A DNA stretch of 22,503 bases, from IMG/VR virus record IMGVR_UViG_3300020451_001757, positions 1 through 22,503 of that record. The stretch is one strand, 5' to 3'. Shown here piece by piece: positions 199-22,503 of the stretch. This DNA comes from a virus. The notes under the pieces were generated by a model, which worked only from the letters and a program-made list of their open reading frames with translations, did not search any database and was not told the DNA's origin. Within the stretch, counting starts at the first letter, position 1. Every line of letters begins with the position of its first letter. Both the position numbers and the translations under genes were made by a program.

Positions 199-602
199 TG
201 GCAAAGAATAAACACAATCAAGAAACAGGATCTAATATAGAAAGATCTGATGAAAGAATATCAGAAACTCAAGAAGTCTTTACACCTCCTGAGATCTGTA
301 GAGAAATGATAGAAAGAATACCATTAGAAACTAGAAAGAACCCAGAGTCAAAGTTTTTAGATAACTCTGCAGGTTCTGGCAACTTTCTAGTTGAGTTAAG
401 AGATGAATTAGTTAAGTATCATAATCTCGATCACGTACTAGATAATATGCTTTATTGCATAGAATTAATGGAAGATAATCATAAAGAAATATGTGAACGT
501 CTAGACGTATCAATAGATCACCCACATTATGTTTGTGCAGATGCTTTAGAATATGATTATAGTTTTGGTAAACCTATTGGTGTTGAATTATTCTTTACTT
601 AA
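198..602 (+). CDS. Short N6-adenine methyltransferase-like protein lacking the catalytic motif
   Basis: This 134-aa protein starts on an ATG overlapping the stop of the preceding gene. Residues about 27-35 (EVFTPPEIC) resemble the entry segment of N6-adenine methyltransferases, and LDNSAGSGNFLVEL at about 54-67 is a clear S-adenosylmethionine-binding motif I. An acidic strand end in YCIELMEDNH and a CADALEYD segment fit motifs II and III. The protein then ends. The catalytic NPPY/DPPY motif expected shortly after motif III is absent, as is any target-recognition domain, so the product should not methylate DNA on its own. It could be a naturally short phage family that binds SAM or a partner, or a remnant. 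Its last 8 bases overlap the 3' end of the convergent tail gene, and no terminator is visible between them. Confidence 0.75.
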   Translation: MAKNKHNQETGSNIERSDERISETQEVFTPPEICREMIERIPLETRKNPESKFLDNSAGSGNFLVELRDELVKYHNLDHVLDNMLYCIELMEDNHKEICERLDVSIDHPHYVCADALEYDYSFGKPIGVELFFT

Positions 603-3600
603 TCGTACAGTTTGCACTATTTGTACCACCAGGACCAGTTGCATTTACAGTATAAGTTGTTGTTCTCTCTGGACTCATTGTAGTAGTACCAGCAGAACTA
701 GCAGGTAAAGAGAATGTTGGATCGTTAGGATTAGATGATCCAAATATTCTAGTAACTTGACCACTAACATCCCAAGTCATAGCAGCAGCTGTATAAGGTA
801 CATCTAAAGTTGGATGCCATAACTCAAAAGTCTGGTTAGCATCAGTACCATCACTATCAAATAATATAATCTTTTTAGTATTATTTGATAATTGATTTGG
901 ATTTGGATAGGTAGTGCCATTAGCAGCATTTAAACCAGTCCATGTAATAGGATATTCCCCTTCAGGTAAAGAGATAACATCACTCATAAACACACCATCT
1001 TCTTGTATTTTAGTGAAATCTAATGAGCAAACTGTCCAATCTCTCTCGGAAAACTCATCTGCTTCATCAGTATCACCAGGACCTTGTAACCAGAAAGCAA
1101 CACCACCTGGATTATAATACCAATTATTATTAGCACCTGGTTCTGGTTCTTGTCCTGCAGGGAAGGAAGAGTTTGTTATCGTTACAGTTAAATCATATTG
1201 TCCTGCAGCCAACGTAAAGTTTTCTACCCTTATATAATCAGAAGTAGGATTACTAAATGTTTCTACTTCACCTAATGGAAATCCTCCAGGGAAAGTAGGT
1301 CCCTTTATAGAGAATTTTGCATTATTATCTGCCTGTGCTTTAAATGTATAAGCATTAGTACCACCAGTAACATTAAATCTATAAACTGCGGTTTGAGCTT
1401 GATTTGGTAAACAATCAGTTGGAGTTCCTGCATTTGAAGATGCAGGGAATACTGCATATTCTCTCATAAACGGAGACCAAGCAACATCCATAGCATATGA
1501 TATTGGATTATCATAAGATCTACCCCAGTATGCTCTACCAGCAGCAAAAGTTTGAGCAAATCCACCAAATGACATACTATCCAAAGCATATCCTTGATCA
1601 GCTTTATCAGTCCAACTATGCTTCACCCTAAAGAGACAATTACCTGGACCACTAACCATTAAATGACTAACAGGATTTTCCTTAAATCTTACATAGTAAG
1701 GAGCCCCGATTGTTACTGTAGGTGCATTAGGATTTGGTGCTGGTGTAGAACCTGAACCTTCACAAGGTCCATCATATCTTCCTTTTATTGAACTATTACT
1801 AATATTACCACCAAGTACAAATGGAGCTCCACAAATAGCTGCACCAGCTTTACCACCATCACCATCTATACCAGTAGTTGATTCTCCTGGTTGACCATAA
1901 TCACCACCATCTCCACCTTTACCACCATCAGTAGAACAAAGTCCAGTATCTACTCTAAGGTCAGCACCAGGTAAACAAGTTGGGCAACCACCTTCAGTGC
2001 CATCTTCTCCAACTTTTGCATTTTGAGGTCCACCACCAACATATTCAGTATATCCATATCCAGCACCCCAGCCACCCATTCCACCTTTACCTTGGATTGG
2101 ATTCTCAGAAGGAACTGAATTTAAACAAGTTCCAGTTTGCCAATTTGCCTTACAAACAGTAGTACACCAAGTTCCACCCCAACTATCAATACAATCAGGA
2201 CCATATCTACAACATCCACCACTTGCCTGTGATATTAATGTATCTCCACTATCACAAGTTGGAGTATCACCACAAGCTGGATTAGCAGCATATTCTTTAT
2301 CACATATACCTTTCATTGCATCCAATCCATCAGGATGAATATATCCCATTGCACCCTGCTCTCCACCACCTCCACCACCATAAATCTTGGCATTATTACC
2401 AACATATACTTGAGTAGTATTTCCTGTATGAACTATCTTTAACGCAGTACCACCATCTTTACCTGGATCACTCTTAGTTTTATCTGTTTGAACAGAATAC
2501 TGAAATAATGCTTCTCTACCAGCAGATCCATAAATCTCACCATCAACTTGAATCCTAAAATTATTTGCAGGTATAGGATTACTTGGCGTTAATCTAGCAG
2601 CAGCGACTTTATCATCACCTACTCCACCACCACCTGTTACACCATTATTACCAGTATCACCACTTCCACTAATCATATCCAGAAATGTAATTTTCTGAAC
2701 ATTTCTTGTTATATTTCCATATGAATCATTAGTACTATCTACTCCACTTGTTCCACCATTTGACCAATCAATACCATTACCACCAGTAAATCTACCCATA
2801 CTCAATTCTGTGGCATTAGATCTTTGATCTGCATAATATCTCTTAATTGAACCTCTCATTTGAGATGCTTTCCAATTAAATTCAGTAGTAGCTGCTATTT
2901 GTTCATTCTCAGTAGAATTTGGAACAATAGGTTCTAATTCATCAGGATTAGTATTCCTTTTCATCTCTGATGCAGAAACAGGAACCGCATTATTAACAGG
3001 ATATATTTCTTTAAAATATTGTCTCATCTTGCTCCATTTAATAGGAACACTACCTGTAAAATAAGGACCTGCTTTCTGAACATCAAAATATGGTCCACTC
3101 TGATGTTGTGTAAGAGGACCACCATTAGATACTTTATTACTATTACCAGGATTAGTATTACCAGTTGATGATTCTACGATAAGTTTTCCACTCATCGCAG
3201 CATGATTACCACACTGATAATAATAAGTTCCTGATGACCCTGCAGGAGCGATCCAAGTAACTGTTTGTGTTTCAGATCCTTGACCACTAACACCTGCTAT
3301 TTGATTAGAAGTTCCAGTAATAGGATCAGTTTTAATATAAAATGGATGCCCTGAAGCATCTACTAAAAAATTAACTCTATCTCCTTCCCTAATAGTTACA
3401 TCTACATCATTACCATTTACTGAACCATTTCTATCTGTTCCTGAAAGACTATATCCACTATTATTAGGTGCTGTTACATCAATATTATATCCTGGTAATG
3501 GTGCAACACTTAATACAGTAATGGTTCCACCCATCGCAGCATGATTACCACACTTATAATAATAAGTTCCTGCAGCTCCAAGTGATGGTGTCCAGTTAAC

Positions 3601-3756
3601 CGTACCATCAGTTGCTCCATTATTAATTACACCATTAACTAAATCTCCACTTCCTGTGGTATCTGTCGTTTTAATGTAGAACGGATGACCCGTTGCTTCT
3701 ACATGAAAATTAATTCTCTCACCTTCTTTAATTCTTACTTCTGGATTACTTGGCAT
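595..3756 (-). CDS. Virion-type protein: tandem cupredoxin domains, Gly-rich/Cys-rich adhesin-like core, Ig-like C-terminus
   Basis: This 1053-aa mosaic is not recognised as a named family. Residues 1-82 hold the copper-ligand half of a cupredoxin fold (H24, C69, H72, M75) and residues 88-195 a complete second copy (H137, C182, H185, M188). Both show the CxxHxxM ligand spacing known from amicyanin. Residues about 220-360 contain repeated short segments such as VPIKWSKMRQYF, of the kind found in marine phage tail proteins. Residues about 457-650 are glycine-rich (IYGGGGGGEQG, GGKGGDGGDYGQPG), resembling polyglycine adhesin tips, and overlap a segment with 14 cysteines. Residues 788-895 are a beta-rich module shared with the upstream subtilase protein. 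The last ~55 residues (TTYTVNATGPGGTNS) look like an Ig-type domain. The start follows a Shine-Dalgarno-like AGGA, eight bases after the upstream stop. A role as tail-tip or fibre adhesin is inferred. Confidence 0.8.
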   Translation of the reverse strand: MPSNPEVRIKEGERINFHVEATGHPFYIKTTDTTGSGDLVNGVINNGATDGTVNWTPSLGAAGTYYYKCGNHAAMGGTITVLSVAPLPGYNIDVTAPNNSGYSLSGTDRNGSVNGNDVDVTIREGDRVNFLVDASGHPFYIKTDPITGTSNQIAGVSGQGSETQTVTWIAPAGSSGTYYYQCGNHAAMSGKLIVESSTGNTNPGNSNKVSNGGPLTQHQSGPYFDVQKAGPYFTGSVPIKWSKMRQYFKEIYPVNNAVPVSASEMKRNTNPDELEPIVPNSTENEQIAATTEFNWKASQMRGSIKRYYADQRSNATELSMGRFTGGNGIDWSNGGTSGVDSTNDSYGNITRNVQKITFLDMISGSGDTGNNGVTGGGGVGDDKVAAARLTPSNPIPANNFRIQVDGEIYGSAGREALFQYSVQTDKTKSDPGKDGGTALKIVHTGNTTQVYVGNNAKIYGGGGGGEQGAMGYIHPDGLDAMKGICDKEYAANPACGDTPTCDSGDTLISQASGGCCRYGPDCIDSWGGTWCTTVCKANWQTGTCLNSVPSENPIQGKGGMGGWGAGYGYTEYVGGGPQNAKVGEDGTEGGCPTCLPGADLRVDTGLCSTDGGKGGDGGDYGQPGESTTGIDGDGGKAGAAICGAPFVLGGNISNSSIKGRYDGPCEGSGSTPAPNPNAPTVTIGAPYYVRFKENPVSHLMVSGPGNCLFRVKHSWTDKADQGYALDSMSFGGFAQTFAAGRAYWGRSYDNPISYAMDVAWSPFMREYAVFPASSNAGTPTDCLPNQAQTAVYRFNVTGGTNAYTFKAQADNNAKFSIKGPTFPGGFPLGEVETFSNPTSDYIRVENFTLAAGQYDLTVTITNSSFPAGQEPEPGANNNWYYNPGGVAFWLQGPGDTDEADEFSERDWTVCSLDFTKIQEDGVFMSDVISLPEGEYPITWTGLNAANGTTYPNPNQLSNNTKKIILFDSDGTDANQTFELWHPTLDVPYTAAAMTWDVSGQVTRIFGSSNPNDPTFSLPASSAGTTTMSPERTTTYTVNATGPGGTNSANCTIK
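1762..2382 (-). other. Glycine-rich, cysteine-rich adhesin-like segment
   Basis: This covers residues about 459-665 of the 1053-aa protein. Poly-Gly (IYGGGGGGEQG) opens it and Gly-rich runs (GGMGGWGAGYGYTEYVGGG, GGKGGDGGDYGQPG) continue, a pattern like the polyglycine-helix tips of T-even gp38 adhesins. Between residues 485 and 665 there are 14 Cys, including CC at 515-516 and CPTC at 591-594, which is unusual for a tail protein folded in a reducing cytoplasm. Disulfides, metal binding or neither are all possible. Confidence 0.6.
3172..3495 (-). other. Cupredoxin domain 2, intact
   Basis: This covers residues 88-195 of the 1053-aa protein. It contains PGYNIDVTAPNN, VTIREGDRVNF, GHPFYIK and GTYYYQCGNHAAMSGKLIV. 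H137, C182, H185 and M188 provide the His-Cys-His-Met set of a type 1 (blue) copper site. Cys-x2-His-x2-Met spacing is the amicyanin form; plastocyanin has two more residues before Met. Whether copper is bound cannot be told from sequence. Confidence 0.75.
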
Positions 3757-3845
3757 TATTCCTAGATAGTCCCGTCTGTATCATTTCCTATTAATATATA
3801 TTCATTATTGTTAGGTGCTGTTACATCAACATTAAATCCTGGTTG
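3511..3845 (-). other. Cupredoxin domain 1, split between two genes
   Basis: The C-terminal 27 residues of the 2107-aa protein (PGFNVDVTAPNNNEY then IGNDTDGTI) match the beginning of the second cupredoxin copy in the next gene (PGYNIDVTAPNNSGY then SGTDRNGSV). The rest of the domain (EVRIKEGERINFHVEA through CGNHAAMGGTITV) is encoded by the next gene after TAG-GAATA-ATG. Comparison by eye with the intact copy places the break in the loop between the early beta-strands. The copper ligands H24, C69, H72 and M75 all lie in the downstream piece. Confidence 0.8.
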
Positions 3846-6800
3846 AGATGTATCCTTAACACTAACTCCAAGAGTATTACCAACTTGATTATTTCTAGCA
3901 GAATCACTGTATAATTTTATCTGAATAATTTCTGTACCCTCTTCAGCCATATCCTTTGCAAGAGCATGAGAGAAACTAAACGTATTAGAAATAACAGTAC
4001 CTTGTCCTTCAATAGATCCAGTTGTTAAATCACTTGAATTAATACCTTCCAATTTCCACCAAAGATCAGTAGAATCTACAACATTAGTTGTTGTTACTGT
4101 TGTTGTAAATGTATCACCTTCCTTAATAATAGATTCTGGTGTTGATAAAACATAAACTGGATTAGAAGTTGTTGAGGTATCAAATATTGTAATTACTGAG
4201 GTATTTGCTACATTATTAGTAAGACCAGAATCAGTATATAATTTAATTAAAATTTTCTCTGTTCCTTCTGTTGTAGCATCCTCCGCAATAGTGTGTGAGA
4301 AAGCAAAACCACCACTAGAAATAGATCCAGATCCACTTAATGCACCTGAAGAAAAATCACCAGCATTTATAGTTCCAGTATGAGATTCAACTACCCAATA
4401 TAAAGTAGTTCCATCATTAATATTAGTTGTTGTTACTGTTGTTGTAAATGATTGCCCCTCATTCAACTGAGTTACACTTGGAGATATACTATAGGTTGGT
4501 GCTTGAGATGTTGATGTATCATTAATAGTAATGCTAAGTGTATTACCAACCTGAGTTGTTCTTCCAGAATCAGTAAATAACTTAACCAACATAGTTTCTG
4601 ATCCTTCTGTTAGAATATCATTTCTAAGAGTAGTACCAAATGCCTTAGAACCAGTAGCATCAGTAACGATATTACTTTCTAAAGTTCCTTCATTAAAATC
4701 AGATGCAGTTATATTTGTACCACTAAATTGCCAATATAAAGTTGTATTTGATGCAACATTAGTAGTTGTTACTGTAATAGCAAGGAATTGTCCTTCATTA
4801 ACTGGATCTAAATTTGAAGAAAGTGCATATGTAGGAGTAGCAGAATCAGTTGAAGTATCATTAATTGTAATTAATGCTGAAGTTGCTACAATATTATTAA
4901 AACCAGCATCAGTAGCTAATTCAATCGCAAACTTTTCTTCTCCTTCTGTTGTTGTATCAGCAGCAACAGTATGTTGGAAATTAAATTGACTACTTGATGT
5001 CGTACCAGAACCATTCAAAGCACCTGAAGAAAAATCACCACCAGTTATATTACCAGTAATCTGATCTAATTGCCAATATAAAGTAGTTCCATCAGCAACA
5101 TTACTTGTAGTAACTGTAGTTGTAAAGGTTTCTCCTTCATTTATTGAAGTATTGGATGGAGATATAACATAAGTAGGTGTTGAAGGAGTTTGAGATGTAT
5201 CATTTATAGTTACACTAGCCTCAGCAACCTTAACTGTTCTTGCAGAATCTACATACAATTTAACTAAACAAGTTTCTGTTCCTTCAGTTGTTGCATCACT
5301 AGAAAGAGTATGAGTAAAATTAAATGTATTATTAGATATAGATCCAGATCCAGTTAATGCTCCTGTAGAAAAATCATTACCATCAATATTAGTACCTTCT
5401 AGTGCCCAATATAAAGTAGTTCCATTAGCAACATTACTTGTAGTAACTGTAGTTGTGAATGAAGAACCTTCATTTACAGATGTTGGATTAGGACTTATAC
5501 TATATGTTGCTTGAGGTATAGAAGTATCATTAACAACAATACTAAGTGTATTACCAACCTGAGTTGTTCTTCCAGAATCAGTATATAATCTAACAGCAAT
5601 AGTTTCACTCCCTTCAAGTGTTACATCATTATCAAGAGTATGACTAAAATTAAAAGTTCCTTGTGCATTAACAGATCCAGATCCAGTTAATGATCCTGAA
5701 GAGAAATCAGAAGATGTTATACCAGTTCCTGATAGTTCCCAATATAAAGCTGTTCCACTAGAAACATTAGTAGTTGTTACTGTTGTAGTAACAGTAGAAC
5801 CTTCATTTATAGTTGTACTACTTGCGGAAAGACTATAAGTTTTAGATTGAGAAGTATCATTGATTGTAATATCTGGAGTACTTGCAACCAAAAGATTAAA
5901 AGTAGCATCAGTATATAATTTAACTGTAAATTTTTCTTCACCCTCAGTTGTTAGATCTTCTGCAAGAGTTTTACTGAAAAGAAAAGTTCCTTGTGAATTA
6001 ACAGATGCAGATCCATCTAATGTTCCACCAACAATATCAGATGTGCTTATATTTCCAGTTTCTTCATTTATTTTCCAATAAAGAGTAGTTCCTGGTGATA
6101 CATTAGTTGTTGTTACTGTTATTATGAAGAAATCACCTTCATCCAGAGTAGTAGTTGAAGGAGTGATATTATAGGTAGGTGTAGTAGGAGCCGTTGATGT
6201 ATCTTGAATAACTACAGAATTATTACTAGCAACCTCATTTGTTCTACCAGAATCAGTATATAATTTAAAATTTATTCTCTCATTACCTTCTGTGACTGAA
6301 TCTTCTATAATAGTTTTACTAACAGCAGCAGAATTATTATTAATTGTTACACTACCAGTTAAAGAAGAAGGAGTAAAATCAGCAGAGGACATACCACTTC
6401 CAGTTATTTCCCAATATAAAGTAGTACCATTAACAACACCTGATGTTCCAATACCATATGTAAAAGATTCTCCTTCATTTGGAGTAGTTTTTGAAGGGGA
6501 TATTGCATATGCCTGAGCAACAGATGTATCATTAATTTGAATAGAGGTACTAGCAACCTGTATTTGTCTTGCAGCATCAGTAAATAATTTTACATTAAGA
6601 GTTTCTATTCCTTCCGTAGTTAAATCATTAGCAAGAGTATGACTAAACTGGAATGATCCTTGACTATTAACAGATCCAGATCCAGTTAATGAACCTGATG
6701 AGAAATCAGCAGATGTTATACCAGTTCCATCTAATCTCCAATATAAAGTAGTTCCATTAGCAACGTCTGTAGTAGTAATAGTAGTAACAAGAGTACTACC

Positions 6801-9800
6801 TTCATTAACATTGGTACTAGGAGAAAGATTTATAACATAAGTTGGATTAGAGGGTTGTTGAGGTAATCCTACGCTATCATCAACATTTAAATAATACCAA
6901 AATCTACCACTACCATCTGTCTGAAAATTACCATTTACAGTAGATATATTAAATCCACTCCAAAATGATCCACCATCACTACTAATCTCAAGAACCTGAT
7001 CATTACTTCCAGATTTAATTCTCATCTTATAATTAGCCAAGGTTGATGAACTGGTACTAGTACTAACGATTTGAACAGGATACCACCCATTAGCAATTCT
7101 TAATTCACTAGGGGAACCAGCATCAGATGAAGAAAATTCTCTTATTGATACAATTTTAACCGTCACAGAAGTACCACTTGTAGTAATACTAAATCTTTCA
7201 TTTAAATTTGGTCTTGATGGTGATATACCACTAGTTGTTTCATAACTAGGATTTGGTGTTGTTTTTATACTAGACCATTCTTTAATTACTTTAACATCTT
7301 CTCCTTTAGTATCATATTGACTCAACCATTTAAGATCAAAAGCACCATTAGGAGCAAATCCTTTATACCAGTTAGTTGCATTTGAAATACCATTTTTAAC
7401 ACTTGCCTTCAATACATTAGGCAACCAACCTCTATTTTGTTGTAGAATACACGCCAATAATCCAGCAGCAACAGGTGCAGCAGCAGAAGTTCCATTAAAA
7501 TACTTATCTCTAAACTTATATGATCCACCACCAGGATGAGTTCTTGTTGATGGATGTTGTGGTATAGGTCCATGACCTCTAGTATAAAAGAAAGTATTAG
7601 CATTATCATAAGATGTAGCAGCTAAAGTAGAATCCGCAGGTGCATAGAAATCGATTAATGGTCCAACATTTGAATATGATCTATTGTCTCCATGTTGACC
7701 AAATGATGAACCAAATGGACTAAGAACATCACAGTTAAACGCTAAATTATTAGCAGTTATTTCACAACTATCTGCATAAGTATTTCTAGTTCCTGTATCT
7801 TTTAATAAAGCATCACTTGATGTACTCTTTCTCATATCACCCAATAATTGGTCATCCATTGCACCAATTACAAAAATTTCTTGGAAATTATCAGTAGCAT
7901 ATCCACTAGGATTTGTTATATTTAACCTAAAATTATGTGAACATGGCCAACCACCACGGTTAGTATATCCACAATTATCATTCTCTGCATCGCAACTGTA
8001 GGTAGGTGTATAAGTACGTGCGTTCCAGAAATTAGGATCATTATCAGTAGCACGATACATTCCATCATTACCAGCAGCAGCAACAAAAACTACACCAGCA
8101 TTTGCTGCTTCTCTCATAGCATAAAACGATGGAAAAGAAGCATCAGTAGTGCCTGGATTTAGCCATGCAGGAAATCCACCAGCACCAGCACCCATAACTC
8201 TTGGTCTCATAAAATCAGGTTGGCTTCCCCATTCATTAAAAGGTAAACTATTATCAAGGTAATCTGCTTGATCATAAGTTACGTCATTTGCAGGGTTCCA
8301 AGAATTTCCTGAAGGTTGGAATTGAAATCTTCCATAACTAGTCTTATCAAAGGTTATTCTACCAAGGAAAGAACCAGTTCCAAAACTGCAATTTGTTACT
8401 GTAGGATCTTGTGTTCCATGTTTTGGATTGGTTGGTTTATATTGGTGAAATACTTTTATAGCATCAAGACAAGCATCATCAGCAGGAGCATCCAACTGTC
8501 CTAATGGATATGAAAGAGTCCATTTGTTAGAATTAAATGCCCATCCATAATTCTTACCATACATTAATGAAGCACAAGGTGTTCCATGATCACCACCAGC
8601 TCTAACTGAACTATTATTTGTTGGTGGGACAGAATCTGTTCCACAATGCCTTGCTCTACTATAACCACTAGGAACTGTAATACTACCAAAATCAGTGAAA
8701 TTATTAGATCTATTAGAAGCACTAGACCACCATGCTCTTGCTGCATTTTCAGTTGGAACTCTAGTTCCATCCCAACGAGTCTCTAAATATGAAGCATTTG
8801 CGTTAAAATACTCAGGATCAAGATAGTATGGAGCATCCAATAGTATATCTAATACACCAGATCTACTATGTCTAGATAAAACATTTCCAGTAATATAATG
8901 TTGTGGATCTTCATCATCGGTGACAAATTCTGGATGACCAGTCCAAACACCATTATCCAATATAATACAATCTACATCAGTTCCATCATTTGTATATGAG
9001 ATATCTTGACTTATTTGTGTTCTAGTATCTGACCAAGGATTAGTTGATGTTCCTTCAGCACATCTTAAAATTTGATATCCAGTTCTATTATGATCAGCAG
9101 AAGTAGGATTATCTTGTGGAATATGAGTAACAAACGTATTTGCTCCAGCATTTCCACCACCACCTAATTCTCTTATATTCATATTACCTAGAAATCTCAA
9201 CTTCCAAGCAATACAACCAGGATTACGATCCCAAGTTTCTGCCCCACTGGTCATATTACCATTTCTTACTTCAAAATTAATAGTAATAGTCCCTGCATTT
9301 AATTTACCTAATTGAATAATTCTATATCCAATTCCTTGATTTCTAGGATCTTTTCTATCTTTACCCCATATATTATCTGGAAATGTAGAAGGAAGATTAT
9401 CAGTGTTTTTCGTTAAATCATCAGTAGTTATTAATGGCACTTTTGGATAACTATCAGTCCATACAGCACCATATTCCCCATCACAAGCTACTTCTAATTC
9501 ATAATATCCTGTATTTGAAATAGTAACTAGATTAGCTCCAGTTTGAGTTGCATTTCTTAAAGGGTCTGGATCAGAGGCATTTGTTGGAGCAGACGGATAT
9601 ACACCATAATCATATATCAAAGGAAATCCCATAGACTGCCAATAGTTCATTGCAGCAGTTCCTGAATGTGCATTTTTCACCAGAACCCAGTTAGTGGTTC
9701 CTTGATTAAGTTGTCCAGTAATGGACATTAAAGAACTAGCAACCTCAGTATATTCATTATTTGCAACACTAAAAAGAGTTCTATAATTCTTTACATTCTT

Positions 9801-10085
9801 ACCAAACCTTAAAGAACAAGGAGTACATTCATACTTATCCGTATCTGGATGATAATTAGGATCTACAAATACTGCTGCAACATCTGGATTTTTCCGTAAT
9901 TCTTCTACTTCTGAAACAGAAAGTTGATATGTTCCTCTAGTTTCACTATGTTTTGTTTCATTCTTACATAAACAAGGTCTATCTGGGACATTGGTTGTAT
10001 TAAATGTTATAGAAGTTAAATCATTATGTATCTTCTGCCAAGAAGCAGCATCCTTAGCAATTACCTGATAATTCTTTCTTGCCAT
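3762..10085 (-). CDS. Giant subtilase (S8) with I9-like propeptide and nine Calx-beta-like repeats
   Basis: This 2107-aa protein starts at an ATG preceded by AAAGGGA at good spacing. Residues about 5-80 resemble a subtilisin inhibitor/propeptide (YQVIAKDAASWQKIH, then LSVSEVEELRKNPDVAAV, then a VDPNY end). Residues about 185-300 are a beta-rich module (WDRNPGCIAWKLRFLG). The peptidase has all catalytic landmarks: D377 in IILDNGVW, H500 in GGDHGTPCAS, oxyanion N673 in VAAAGNDG and S867 in NGTSAAAPVAAG. The Asp-to-Ser span of about 490 residues is longer than in typical subtilisins, implying large insertions. After a beta-rich linker (about 960-1075), nine ~111-residue Calx-beta-like repeats fill 1081-2080. 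The last 27 residues are the start of a cupredoxin domain completed by the next gene. It is likely a virion-associated protein acting outside the host on surface proteins or on fellow tail proteins; that role is inferred. Confidence 0.85.
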   Translation of the reverse strand: MARKNYQVIAKDAASWQKIHNDLTSITFNTTNVPDRPCLCKNETKHSETRGTYQLSVSEVEELRKNPDVAAVFVDPNYHPDTDKYECTPCSLRFGKNVKNYRTLFSVANNEYTEVASSLMSITGQLNQGTTNWVLVKNAHSGTAAMNYWQSMGFPLIYDYGVYPSAPTNASDPDPLRNATQTGANLVTISNTGYYELEVACDGEYGAVWTDSYPKVPLITTDDLTKNTDNLPSTFPDNIWGKDRKDPRNQGIGYRIIQLGKLNAGTITINFEVRNGNMTSGAETWDRNPGCIAWKLRFLGNMNIRELGGGGNAGANTFVTHIPQDNPTSADHNRTGYQILRCAEGTSTNPWSDTRTQISQDISYTNDGTDVDCIILDNGVWTGHPEFVTDDEDPQHYITGNVLSRHSRSGVLDILLDAPYYLDPEYFNANASYLETRWDGTRVPTENAARAWWSSASNRSNNFTDFGSITVPSGYSRARHCGTDSVPPTNNSSVRAGGDHGTPCASLMYGKNYGWAFNSNKWTLSYPLGQLDAPADDACLDAIKVFHQYKPTNPKHGTQDPTVTNCSFGTGSFLGRITFDKTSYGRFQFQPSGNSWNPANDVTYDQADYLDNSLPFNEWGSQPDFMRPRVMGAGAGGFPAWLNPGTTDASFPSFYAMREAANAGVVFVAAAGNDGMYRATDNDPNFWNARTYTPTYSCDAENDNCGYTNRGGWPCSHNFRLNITNPSGYATDNFQEIFVIGAMDDQLLGDMRKSTSSDALLKDTGTRNTYADSCEITANNLAFNCDVLSPFGSSFGQHGDNRSYSNVGPLIDFYAPADSTLAATSYDNANTFFYTRGHGPIPQHPSTRTHPGGGSYKFRDKYFNGTSAAAPVAAGLLACILQQNRGWLPNVLKASVKNGISNATNWYKGFAPNGAFDLKWLSQYDTKGEDVKVIKEWSSIKTTPNPSYETTSGISPSRPNLNERFSITTSGTSVTVKIVSIREFSSSDAGSPSELRIANGWYPVQIVSTSTSSSTLANYKMRIKSGSNDQVLEISSDGGSFWSGFNISTVNGNFQTDGSGRFWYYLNVDDSVGLPQQPSNPTYVINLSPSTNVNEGSTLVTTITTTDVANGTTLYWRLDGTGITSADFSSGSLTGSGSVNSQGSFQFSHTLANDLTTEGIETLNVKLFTDAARQIQVASTSIQINDTSVAQAYAISPSKTTPNEGESFTYGIGTSGVVNGTTLYWEITGSGMSSADFTPSSLTGSVTINNNSAAVSKTIIEDSVTEGNERINFKLYTDSGRTNEVASNNSVVIQDTSTAPTTPTYNITPSTTTLDEGDFFIITVTTTNVSPGTTLYWKINEETGNISTSDIVGGTLDGSASVNSQGTFLFSKTLAEDLTTEGEEKFTVKLYTDATFNLLVASTPDITINDTSQSKTYSLSASSTTINEGSTVTTTVTTTNVSSGTALYWELSGTGITSSDFSSGSLTGSGSVNAQGTFNFSHTLDNDVTLEGSETIAVRLYTDSGRTTQVGNTLSIVVNDTSIPQATYSISPNPTSVNEGSSFTTTVTTSNVANGTTLYWALEGTNIDGNDFSTGALTGSGSISNNTFNFTHTLSSDATTEGTETCLVKLYVDSARTVKVAEASVTINDTSQTPSTPTYVISPSNTSINEGETFTTTVTTSNVADGTTLYWQLDQITGNITGGDFSSGALNGSGTTSSSQFNFQHTVAADTTTEGEEKFAIELATDAGFNNIVATSALITINDTSTDSATPTYALSSNLDPVNEGQFLAITVTTTNVASNTTLYWQFSGTNITASDFNEGTLESNIVTDATGSKAFGTTLRNDILTEGSETMLVKLFTDSGRTTQVGNTLSITINDTSTSQAPTYSISPSVTQLNEGQSFTTTVTTTNINDGTTLYWVVESHTGTINAGDFSSGALSGSGSISSGGFAFSHTIAEDATTEGTEKILIKLYTDSGLTNNVANTSVITIFDTSTTSNPVYVLSTPESIIKEGDTFTTTVTTTNVVDSTDLWWKLEGINSSDLTTGSIEGQGTVISNTFSFSHALAKDMAEEGTEIIQIKLYSDSARNNQVGNTLGVSVKDTSQPGFNVDVTAPNNNEYILIGNDTDGTI
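4534..4575. repeat. 42-bp direct repeat, copy A
   Basis: This stretch inside one Calx-beta-like repeat is identical to 5542-5583. It encodes the end of a unit (around GRTTQVGNTLS). Confidence 0.9.
5542..5583. repeat. 42-bp direct repeat, copy B
   Basis: This is identical to 4534-4575. The offset of 1008 bp is 336 codons, about three repeat units, so recombination between the copies would keep the reading frame. Confidence 0.9.
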
Positions 10086-18090: not shown

Positions 18091-18684
18091 TTAAGCGTTT
18101 TCAACATAATACCAAGTGACAGCAACTCTCTTTTTTCCAGCATAAACTGGTTCACCTGCATGAGGATAACACCAATTAGATGGAAATATTAAAGCATAAC
18201 CTGGTTTTGGTTTTATTCCCAAATGTGGAAATGAAGTTCCTCCACCTTTAGTCGCTTCTTCCAGATATAAAATAATGGATATCTTTCTATGATATTCATT
18301 CAATCTAGGATCTGTTGCAGCATCATGATGAAATTTATATTCTTGCCCCTTTTTATAATCTAATACCTGTATTCCCTCTCTCCAAGATTTAGTTCCAGAT
18401 CCACCAGGAACAGGATAATAACTAAAATTGGTATGAACCTTTTGTATTCTTCTCTTATATTCATCCAACCCTTTATTCATAGCATTATGAATAATTTCAG
18501 TTATTTCATTATCTTCTTTTAAAGTTGTTCCTGTGCTGGATCTAATATCAGTATTGGTTTTTGAAGGTCCATCACCTTTACCAAAAACAGTATTATCCTG
18601 AAAATCAAGAGTATCTATGTACTTATTAATATTTTTAAGATCATTTACACTAAGAATTTTAATTGCTTGAATCAGATCATTCAT
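18091..18684 (-). CDS. 2OG-Fe(II) oxygenase, prolyl 4-hydroxylase-like, complete
   Basis: This 197-aa enzyme has about 70 N-terminal residues of no recognised domain, followed by the double-stranded beta-helix core. Iron ligands are H119-x-D121 (KFHHDAAT) and H175 (CYPHAGEPV). K185, ten residues after the distal His as in prolyl 4-hydroxylases, is the likely 2-oxoglutarate contact (GKKRVAVTWYY). Other family landmarks are ISIILYLEEA, GGGTSFPHLG and KPGYALIFPS. All metal and cosubstrate residues are present, so it should be active. Known substrates of the family include prolines in collagen-like or other peptides. Here two collagen-like proteins with many Gly-X-Pro triplets are encoded just upstream in the same block, making them candidate substrates (inference). 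Other roles proposed for phage 2OG oxygenases cannot be excluded. Confidence 0.88.
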   Translation of the reverse strand: MNDLIQAIKILSVNDLKNINKYIDTLDFQDNTVFGKGDGPSKTNTDIRSSTGTTLKEDNEITEIIHNAMNKGLDEYKRRIQKVHTNFSYYPVPGGSGTKSWREGIQVLDYKKGQEYKFHHDAATDPRLNEYHRKISIILYLEEATKGGGTSFPHLGIKPKPGYALIFPSNWCYPHAGEPVYAGKKRVAVTWYYVENA

Positions 18685-18718: not shown

Positions 18719-19228
18719 TTATGAAGGTTTTGTCGGCCAAGCAGAATGTGAATGATTATCTGCTAATGCTTTTGCAGTTAAATTAGAATCTGCTGCTATG
18801 GTTGCTGGAAGATCTCTTAGTGCCTGACGATATGTTTGCCACTCTGTTTTTTTATCTGATGTAAGTGTAACATCATCTAAACGAGTCCAATCGGACCAAG
18901 ACAACTGAGCATTTCTATAATTTTTTACTTCCTGTAAATGATTTCTTGCTGCTTCATATGCAGCAGATGCAAGGGTTTGTTCATCTGCATGATCTGTTAC
19001 TGCTTGTTGCCAGATACCAATTTCAGTAATCTCCTCACCCCATTTTTTATCTCCATTTCCATCTACAGCATCTTCATTGTATTCAATAAAACCTTTTCCT
19101 GCAGTTGTATCAAAAAACATTCCATGAACATCTGATGGAATCCATGAAAGATCAACATTAGTACAAGGATGTACTGCAACACCGTCAAGAACTATGGTTT
19201 TATCTGAAGGTATAACTTGAATTTTCAT
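18719..19228 (-). CDS. Tail assembly chaperone-like protein (Phage_tail_APC-type C-terminus), copy 1
   Basis: In this 169-aa protein, residues about 100-168 carry the signature of the phage tail assembly chaperone-like family: a helix ending NYRNAQLSWSDWTRL, then [16 protein letters not shown], and a terminal WPTKP. The N-terminal ~60 residues form a beta-rich domain (MKIQVIPSDKTIVLDGVAV; WIPSDVHGMFFD) of unknown fold, followed by a long helical linker rich in Ala and Gln. The start overlaps the stop of the upstream Cys-protein gene by four bases (ATGA), indicating coupling. Copy 2 at 20723-21265 has a nearly identical C-terminus but an unrelated N-terminus, suggesting each helper is matched to a different fibre by its N-terminal half. 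The chaperone role is inferred from family membership. Confidence 0.75.
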   Translation of the reverse strand: MKIQVIPSDKTIVLDGVAVHPCTNVDLSWIPSDVHGMFFDTTAGKGFIEYNEDAVDGNGDKKWGEEITEIGIWQQAVTDHADEQTLASAAYEAARNHLQEVKNYRNAQLSWSDWTRLDDVTLTSDKKTEWQTYRQALRDLPATIAADSNLTAKALADNHSHSAWPTKPS

Positions 19229-19564: not shown

Positions 19565-20713
19565 TTAATTCTTTGTACATATTATAGCATCAACATACTG
19601 AACTGCCAAGTCCAAGGAACCTGAACTACTAACACTTATGCTACTATCACTGAAAGTATGACTGTGATCACTAGGGGAACCAGAAGCAGTAAAACTATCA
19701 CTAAAAGTGAAGTTAGAACCACTTATAGTATACATTATTATAGCATGTGTATGGTAGTCATTACCACCAGTACTATTAACACTAGGTTGTCCTGAAGAAC
19801 CAGCATTTAAAGTATCTACGAAACCATAGTTACCACCAGAAGTTCCAACTTTACTAGGGAATTGGTGTTGGTGAGCTGGCATCTGAGCAGTTGATAAGAA
19901 AGCTTGAGTAGTGTTCTGATACATTACCTGTGATCCACCGCAATTACCACTAACAGATCCACTAACACTAACAGATCCAGCATTATCGCTACTTGTAGAT
20001 CCACTAGCACTTCCAGATCCACTAACACTTAAAGATCTACTAGCAAAATTACTAGTAAATGAATTACTACCACCAGAACCACCACCAGAACCACTTACAA
20101 TTCTAAGTGCTTTATTATCATGTGATGTTGATTTTGTCCATCCAGTAGGAGCACTACTTTGAACAAATAACATAACAGCTCCAGAAGGAACAGATGGATT
20201 AGCTGCACTACCTGTTGGACCTGTTGGACCATCTGGACCTGTAGGACCTGTTGGACCTGTAGAACCTGTTGGACCAGTAGGACCAGTAGGACCATCTGGA
20301 CCTGGAGGACCATCTCCACCTGTTGAACCAGGAGGACCATCGGGACCAACAACAGTCGAATCAGCACCTGGAGGACCTGTTGGACCATCAGGACCATCAG
20401 GACCTGTTGGACCATCAGAACCTGTAGGACCTGGAGGACCTGCGGGACCTGTTGGACCTGTACTGCCATCATTACCATCAGCTCCTGCATTTCCAGTATT
20501 ACCAGTTGGACCTGTAGGACCTGTTGGACCTGTTGGACCTGTAGGACCATTAGGACCTGGAACTGTTGAATCATTACCTGGAGGTCCAGGAGGACCTGCT
20601 GGTCCTACTGATTCAACTCTTTTCCAAGCATATCCATCCCACTTCCAAGTAACACCATTTTCTGTATGGGTAGTATTTAAACTAGGACTCGATGGAAAAT
20701 CAAACGCTGCCAT
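19565..20713 (-). CDS. Collagen-like tail fibre with HxH motifs in the C-terminal tip
   Basis: This 382-aa protein has an N-terminus ([18 protein letters not shown], then [11 protein letters not shown]) of the short attachment type seen in marine phage structural proteins. Residues 37-170 are about 42 Gly-X-Y triplets, mostly GPT, GPD and GPP, broken twice by STVP and STVV after a GxD triplet; this should form a collagen triple helix. Residues about 171-382 form a fibre tip that begins like a tail-collar/fibre domain ([18 protein letters not shown]). It continues through Ser/Gly-rich repeats and has three HxH motifs (281-283 in MPAHQHQF, 321-323, 350-352), comparable to the metal-binding His motifs of T4 long and short fibre tips. 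Trimeric assembly follows from the collagen. Receptor binding and hydroxylation by the nearby oxygenase are inferences. Confidence 0.85.
20204..20605 (-). repeat. Collagen Gly-X-Y repeat region, interrupted twice
   Basis: This covers residues 37-170 of the 382-aa fibre: 4 triplets, STVP, 22 triplets, STVV, 16 triplets. At DNA level it is an array of 9-bp units related to GGTCCAACA with third-position changes, so it may slip in length in steps of three bases. Confidence 0.9.
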
Positions 20714-21271: not shown

Positions 21272-22503
21272 TTAAGCAAACTCCAACAGAACTATCTGTC
21301 CATGACCACCATCAGTACCATTATTACCACCACCTTGACCACCTCTGCCACCTCTGCCAGCTGAGTCATAGGCTGCACCACCCCAGAAAGTACCACCACC
21401 ATGTCCTGTGATTCCATTATCTCCAGGATGACCTTCATCACCACCACAAACAACATCACCAGTACCAAACCTACCATTACCACCAGCAACTACAGCTCCA
21501 CTGTTACCACCTACTCCACCATAACCACTATGACCAAAGGTTGCAGTTCCAGTAGGTACTACAAATTCGGAATAATTTCCATTACCACCATTACCACCAC
21601 CTGTTCCACCAGTTCCAGGTTGTCCTACAAAAATACGACATTGCCCACTGTAATAAGTAGTAGCATCCATTTCTGCTTTAGAAAATTCTCTTATTCCAGT
21701 ACCAGCACCACCGCCACCACCTCCAGCGTTAGCAGCAGAACCTCCCCCACCGCCACCGCCACCGCCAGTGACAATTACAACAAACCTATTATACTTGGAT
21801 GTATCTGGAGTATAATACACATGACTTGCATTAGTGGTAGTAGTCCATTGTACCATATTAAATCCTTGATCTGTAGTTCCTGATGGTCCAGGAGGTCCTG
21901 GAGTACCTGGAGTTCCATCAGCACCATCTTGTCCATCTTGACCAGCAGGTCCTGGAGGTCCTGATCCACCAGGATTTCCATCAGCACCATCTTGACCATT
22001 ACTACCATCTTGACCATCGGCACCTGGAGGACCAGCAGGACCAGGAGTACCAATTCCACCATCAGCACCATCTTGTCCATCTTGACCATCGGCACCTGGA
22101 GGACCAGGAGGACCAGGAGGACCAGCAATAGTAGAAGCAGTAGCAGCATTTTTAATTATAAAACATAATGCCCAATATGGTGGTAGGTTCTTATCAGTAC
22201 CAGGCACACCTTCTGAATTCATATTGAAGACAGTAGATGAATAAGTACCAGCACCACCATATGAATAAGAACTACCACCGTTACCTGGAATAACATGACC
22301 ACCATCAATGTTTGTAGTGTGTTCGTGTTCTACAACTACAGCATCTTTACTACCACCTGTTGCATCAACAGCATATGTACTACTCGATCCAATAACAAAT
22401 TTGTCTCTTAGATCTGGTACATTAGCTCTTATTGCTTGTAGTTCTGTTGTTGCAGATGCAGAACCATCACATAATTGATATCCAGTTGGTATGTTAGATG
22501 CAG
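21272..22503 (-). CDS. Tail-collar / collagen / glycine-rich fibre protein (5' partial)
   Basis: The reading frame stays open to the right edge, so an ATG at 22222 is internal. From the edge the frame reads [14 protein letters not shown], then [25 protein letters not shown] and [14 protein letters not shown], a phage tail-collar domain. It is followed by 28 uninterrupted Gly-X-Y triplets at 21872-22123. About ten have Pro in the Y position. The C-terminal ~170 residues are a beta segment ([19 protein letters not shown]) and Gly-rich arrays ([38 protein letters not shown]), ending in a QIVLLEFA strand. The tip resembles polyglycine-helix adhesins. A fibre with collar base, collagen shaft and glycine tip is inferred. 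A chaperone-like gene follows after six bases. Confidence 0.85.
21872..22123 (-). repeat. Uninterrupted collagen Gly-X-Y region, 28 triplets
   Basis: The triplets are GPP x3, then a mix of [18 protein letters not shown] and GPS, ending [12 protein letters not shown]-type blocks recur three times, showing internal duplication. Y-position Pro, the site used by collagen prolyl 4-hydroxylases, is frequent. Confidence 0.9.

Follow-up and report, generated by a model that had tools for sequence, protein, structure and literature searches.

Gene layout at the locus

The stretch of viral DNA analysed here (the window, a virus record of 22,503 bases) carries all of its large genes on the minus strand, where genes for a tail fibre and tail proteins are followed by gene A and then by gene B. 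The features of these two genes, in window coordinates, are the following.

3762..10085, minus strand: gene A, 2107 aa, comprising a subtilase-like part, about nine repeats and a 26-residue cupredoxin tail
6876..10085, minus strand: A residues 1-1070, the subtilase-like protease part, recognized by its motifs
3861..6848, minus strand: A residues 1080-2075, a repeat region with about nine units, each some 111 residues long
3765..3842, minus strand: A residues 2082-2107, the hairpin with which the split cupredoxin begins, at positions 2 to about 26 of the profile
3757..3764, minus strand: the spacer TAGGAATA, 8 bases, containing A's stop codon, a Shine-Dalgarno-like AGGA and TAA
595..3756, minus strand: gene B, 1053 aa
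3511..3756, minus strand: B residues 1-82 (copy 1), the remainder of the split cupredoxin, with ligands H24, C69, H72 and M75
3172..3495, minus strand: B residues 88-195 (copy 2), an intact cupredoxin with ligands H137, C182, H185 and M188
598..3081, minus strand: B residues 226-1053, a Gly-rich adhesin-like part whose homologs are the C-termini of fused proteins and stand-alone genes

The protease part of A carries motifs around D377 (...ILDNG), H500 and S867, and its homologs, which are annotated as PF00082 or peptidase S8, occur in Synechococcus phages; a search of A for the subtilase family gave no Pfam match at an E-value of 0.01. The repeats, which have only sub-threshold Pfam matches (Ig_3, AGS_C), are taken here to be Calx-beta-like. 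In B, the Pfam model Copper-bind is found in the second cupredoxin-type stretch, while the C-terminal part is not covered by any family model for which a function is named, and it is therefore by inference that this part is called adhesin-like. The photosystem gene PF00124, sought as a host marker, is found in none of the 10 contigs, all of which are fragments. The neighbouring genes in relatives, which include a helicase, a tryptophan halogenase and a formyltransferase family that is named cyanobacterial, fit a T4-like cyanophage.

A cupredoxin domain divided by a gene boundary

The C-terminus of A, PGFNVDVTAPNNNEYILIGNDTDGTI, aligns to the intact copy 2 of B with a score of 91, a value reached by none of 5000 shuffles (the best of which scored 57). 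The original prediction that the end of A matches the first strands of the intact copy is thereby upheld, with the length of the match corrected from 27 residues to 26, and the matching segment is equivalent to two or three strands folded as a hairpin and not to a single strand. At the DNA level, the split copy and the intact copy can be aligned across the junction (67% identity, E = 1.4e-22), and the two copies therefore look like a tandem duplication in which the break has fallen inside one member.

The two pieces were placed on the domain using a cupredoxin profile constructed from 72 distinct intact marine-phage domains at 53 loci, none of them from the split clade. The A tail covers profile positions 2-24 and the start of B covers positions 28-109, so that the rest of the first cupredoxin copy begins the next gene, as had been predicted. 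When the A tail and B are read end to end, the combined text matches positions 2-109, uninterrupted where the pieces meet, in all eight of the contigs that span the junction, the window included. For the window, the joined text scores 120.0 bits and B alone 102.8 bits; a profile in which 7 of 79 rows were copy 2 sequences of the split clade gives 127.4 and 108.9 bits and leads to the same conclusion. The gain of 17.2 bits contributed by the A tail is reached by none of 400 stretches of 26 residues drawn at random from A, which attain at most 7.0 bits, but it is smaller than the median of 27.4 bits contributed by the N-terminal part of intact domains, which counts against the reading that the two pieces dock.

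The match at the join is residue for residue, GTI + MPSNPEV being aligned with GSV + NGNDVDV in copy 2 and with GNI + NGSDPAL in relatives. It had been suggested that about two loop residues were replaced at the junction by 14 bases containing TAG, AGGA and ATG; these elements are present, but no residue is missing, and the 14 bases are correctly divided into the last Ile codon of A, the 8-base spacer and the start codon of B. The spacer begins with A's stop codon, B's ATG follows directly after its 8 bases, and its TAA overlaps that ATG as TAATG. In the divergent relative L010 the spacer is 11 bases long. Spacers of both lengths contain TAG followed by TAATG and place B in the -1 frame.

Distribution of the split

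The split is identical in 8/8 contigs that cover the junction, which are the window and seven other viral contigs (L005, L006, L007, L008, L010, L011 and L013); two further relatives, L009 and L012, end before the junction and were left out of this count. It persists down to about 43-45% identity in the C-terminal part of B. A scan of viral contigs with a pattern for the tail peptide returned the same seven contigs and no others. Among the retrieved loci, of which there are several per contig, there are 142 cupredoxin motif matches, and the 25 of these that have an upstream stop within 45 residues all come from split contigs or from the window, so that the split is confined to one lineage, a group of marine phages, among the sequences searched.

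Searches of a wider set of records yielded relatives of the separate parts. A DNA search for the junction over 50,697 phage records gave 6 records, four from Prochlorococcus phages and two from single-cell marine viruses, and at the protein level 23 records have relatives of the protease or the repeats and 57 have relatives of the cupredoxin. Several candidates were rejected as relatives of the junction: the P-SSM2 locus is a different gene, located beside a terminase gene; in the Prochlorococcus phage records the protein matches to A end at residue 2103 or earlier; and the loci L104-L111, obtained in the tail search, turned out to be other repeat proteins.

Structural models and the predicted copper site

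In the AlphaFold model of the last 212 residues of A, the last repeat is confidently predicted and the tail is strandless, with a pLDDT of about 48-63; the possibility that the tail is part of the last repeat was discarded on the basis of this model. In the model of B residues 1-200, copy 1 has six strands and copy 2 has nine, and the additional strands of copy 2 (90-98, 101-108 and 111-116) are those that the A tail would be predicted to supply. The strand counts and the profile coverage both indicate that copy 1, the putative recipient, lacks the strands that the tail, as donor, would provide. Against docking, copy 1 modelled without the tail is predicted with high confidence except for its first ten residues.

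The fold search, whose matches are almost exclusively to copy 2 (residues 85-200), aligns this copy with rusticyanin (2cal; Z 9.6, rmsd 2.8 over 96 residues), a cupredoxin beta-sandwich, and also with two-domain laccases, while the sequence profile of the B cupredoxin matches plastocyanin and amicyanin chains. The type-1 copper ligands His, Cys, His and Met are invariant in both copies in 7/7 aligned rows, and all of them lie in B. By their ligands, and copy 2 also by its modelled fold, the copies would be classed as type 1 cupredoxins, which may bind copper. Since the last 200 residues of A contain no Cys and the first 230 residues of B contain only the two copper Cys, a disulfide between A and B is unlikely.

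Selection and divergence

Selection was evaluated using pN/pS in six of the eight contigs, two near-duplicates having been excluded. The A tail has a ratio of 0.34 (bootstrap 0.15-0.57) and the remainder of its domain, in B, one of 0.31. Higher values are obtained elsewhere: in copy 2, 0.74 for the strands equivalent to the tail and 0.47 for everything else, and in A, 0.63 over about 100 codons at the end of the repeats. Of 5000 permutations, 118 give a difference between the tail and the corresponding copy 2 strands that is at least as large. These sequence comparisons indicate that the A tail is under purifying selection, to an extent similar to that of the remaining split domain and greater than that of the same strands in copy 2.

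When the window is compared with L011, L013 and L010, respectively, identities are 88, 92 and 69% for the tail and 87, 85 and 72% for copy 1, compared to 56, 47 and 55% for the repeats, 65, 66 and 62% for copy 2, 43, 44 and 45% for the adhesin-like part, and 46, 87 and 42% for the protease. From these values the split domain emerges as a conserved island among parts that have diverged or been exchanged, the exception being the protease that the window shares with L013. It is less clear in close pairs that the two halves of the split domain are the best conserved part: between the window and L008 the tail is 100% identical, copy 1 89% and the adhesin-like part 92%, which counts against the explanation favoured below.

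Fused and stand-alone relatives

In two relatives, L117 and L120, the protease, the repeats and a B-like part are encoded by a single ORF (2162 or 2204 aa), the C-terminal part of which is homologous to B from residue 226 (36% and 39% identity); the protease and repeat part of L117 is 38% identical to A. The layout is the same in L147, whose protease is 39% identical to that of A, and L133 is a fourth, truncated fused case. None of these four fused relatives contains a cupredoxin according to the profile (best scores below 0), and no continuous protease-adhesin ORF with a cupredoxin domain was found among the relatives examined. Since parts that form a single chain in one genome often interact where another genome encodes them separately, the fused relatives make it probable that A and B are partners.

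In 23/23 further loci examined, of 48 returned, the adhesin-like gene occurs by itself, with a match that begins within 37 residues of the ORF start and no protease motifs; it can therefore attach to a virion without a protease partner, which speaks against the association of A and B proposed below. Two more loci, L170 and L171, resemble these. In a 33-row tree of the adhesin part the nine split rows form one group (92/90), and the nearest neighbours of this lineage, fused or stand-alone, are not separated. An apparent grouping of split with fused rows (97/95) in a 19-row tree was set aside: a motif filter had removed six rows from that tree, three of them split. Because the larger tree leaves the neighbours of the split lineage unplaced, no order of events, fused first or separate first, is claimed. 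The original prediction of a real gene fission is accordingly retained in one respect, since a real break inside a domain, seen in all eight contigs, is well supported, but the polarity that it implies is not adopted, given the tree and the lack of a cupredoxin in the fused relatives.

Evaluation of alternative explanations

If one continuous gene had been broken by an assembly or sequencing indel, the single frame in which the flanking parts lie in more distant relatives would be accounted for, but the same split appears in 8/8 contigs from several datasets, with scattered differences around it and with two spacer lengths, 8 and 11 bases, and a cupredoxin is absent from the fused relatives; the alignment of the junction to related phage contigs, which had been proposed as a check, therefore bears out the view that this is not a slip, and we give the indel practically no credence. 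Alternatively, some ribosomes could change to the -1 frame, or bypass the spacer, and so translate A and B as one chain that contains a whole cupredoxin. Such recoding would explain why B is in the -1 frame in 8/8 contigs and why spacers of 8 and 11 bases both preserve it, and there are identical take-off and landing codons, GGA at codon -3 in 5/8 and at codon -8 in 6/8; bypassing is moreover present in this phage group, in T4 gene 60, according to PMC5009743. Nevertheless, a canonical slippery heptamer X XXY YYZ is absent from the last 11 codons in 8/8 contigs, the site for a single-tRNA slip that 6/8 contigs have at codon -7 falls outside B's open frame, no hop pair is common to all eight (codon -3 of the window is GGG), the RNA fold is unexceptional (z = 0.35, with 128 of 200 shuffles folding equally well), two-sided changes are found in 0/40 consensus pairs of a fold computed without pseudoknots, and the shared frame is already accounted for by the TAATG overlap. 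Recoding is consequently judged quite improbable. L010 has a single-tRNA slip site at codon -4. Since the short spacer, the Shine-Dalgarno-like AGGA and the TAATG fit ordinary or coupled initiation, separate A and B proteins are the likeliest products.

Even if two proteins are made, they need not dock: the A tail could be a remnant, or could serve some other partner, while the first domain of B folds alone. The confident model obtained for copy 1 by itself and the occurrence of stand-alone adhesin-like genes speak for such a situation. It is less easily reconciled with a tail that is under as much constraint as the other part of its domain, and under more than the equivalent strands in copy 2, and whose length and end are exactly kept in 8/8 contigs, and we regard it as unlikely, though a more serious contender than recoding.

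Proposed association of A and B

The explanation that we favour, and consider probable on the basis of sequence comparison and structural models, is that A and B are linked in the tail by beta-hairpin complementation of the split cupredoxin. Two genes that lie side by side with very little DNA between them would give A and B as separate proteins. The 26-residue end of A, unfolded by itself, would be the N-terminal beta-hairpin that the cupredoxin of B residues 1-82 lacks, and when the two proteins meet the hairpin would join the open sheet of B and complete the sandwich. The protease-and-repeat stalk formed by A would thereby be held to the adhesin-like part of B without a covalent bond. The presence of both proteins in virions, their docking and the part of the hairpin in it are steps that we infer.

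A broader proposal, which is tentative and somewhat unlikely, is that the split cupredoxin acts as a standard plug and socket, the stalks and tips being exchangeable and the joint constant. In that case protease stalks would end in a hairpin plug and tips would begin with a socket, and phages would recombine stalk and tip genes. Metal binding could then tighten or gate the connection, as the B side keeps all four copper ligands. We know of no earlier natural split cupredoxin and of no such joint in a phage tail, so that this one would be, to our knowledge, the first of each. If docking is real, the tail fibre would be assembled from exchangeable genes between which the link is kept, the naturally evolved split domain might serve as a non-covalent protein coupler, and the connection would be directly testable with two short peptides. 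The locus also carries a warning for annotation, namely that a single domain may span two genes.

Comparison with known systems

Split genes in T4-like phages, as described in PMC2988022, include nrdA of Aeh1, 43A/43B of Aeromonas phages 25 and 44RR, and topoisomerase gene 60 of T4, and the products of such genes are thought to reassemble; at the split in gene 43 of phage 44RR there is an untranslated intercistronic sequence and no endonuclease. The A/B locus resembles these cases in that one ancestral chain, here one domain, is encoded by two adjacent genes, and it differs from them in that the break interrupts a small beta-sandwich in a tail protein and the spacer is 8-11 bases long. No homing endonuclease is present at the A/B split, only 8-11 bases lying between the pieces. 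As in programmed frameshifting and bypassing (PMC5009743), two phage ORFs in different frames could be joined, but A/B has no canonical slippery site or fully conserved hop codons, and its RNA gives no sign of a stimulatory structure in a fold computed without pseudoknots.

A search of the open-licence literature for a cupredoxin in a phage tail fibre or virion, for fission of a tail-fibre gene, or for a split tail fibre completed by a beta-hairpin found none, and for cyanophage cupredoxins it gave one paper, listed as being on Borgs, although absence from this literature is weak evidence. A parallel for the location of the domain is provided by Synechococcus phage S-H9-1, in which a phage protease, annotated as subtilisin-like, has a C-terminal cupredoxin-type domain; there, unlike in A, the domain is complete (profile 1-109), lies in one ORF with the protease, and is not preceded by intervening repeats.

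In donor-strand complementation, which is known from pili and similar fibres, a piece of one chain completes the open beta-sandwich of the next chain. The piece contributed by A would, according to the models, likewise complete an open beta-sandwich in B, but it differs from a donor strand in being a hairpin, in deriving from the same ancestral domain as its recipient, and in joining two different proteins once.

Mosaicism and distribution of the protein parts

The protease part of the 2107-residue protein A (window 6876-10085), when compared across the related viral contigs L006, L008, L010, L011 and L013, shows a mosaic pattern, in which the window is 87% identical to L013 in this part and 47% identical to L006, while outside the protease part the window and L006 are 87-100% identical in the repeats, the tail and the 1053-residue protein B. 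Repeats of the A type are also present in other phage proteins, both at loci L104-L111 and in P-SSM2 (L014 8140-9597), where the gene adjoins the terminase gene.

The adhesin-like part lies behind the protease in one ORF in three phage contigs (L117, L120 and L147), whereas among loci L134-L171 it is found as a separate gene. It stands alone in both L170 and L171, although the L170 part falls with the fused lineage.

Neighbouring and comparable genes

Two genes lie among the tail fibre genes of the window:

18091-18684, 2OG-Fe(II) oxygenase gene
18719-19228, tail-fibre-assembly-like gene

The window also encodes, at 19565-20713 and at 21272-22501, a pair of tail fibre-like proteins whose Gly-Pro-rich repeats are collagen-like.

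In Synechococcus phage S-SCSM2R, a gene annotated PetE follows the S8 protease:

L123 9822-10328, PetE-annotated gene

Because the N-terminus of its product is similar to that of an S-SSM7 gene annotated gp9, the product looks not like a plastocyanin but like a baseplate-connector-type protein with a cupredoxin at its C-terminus.
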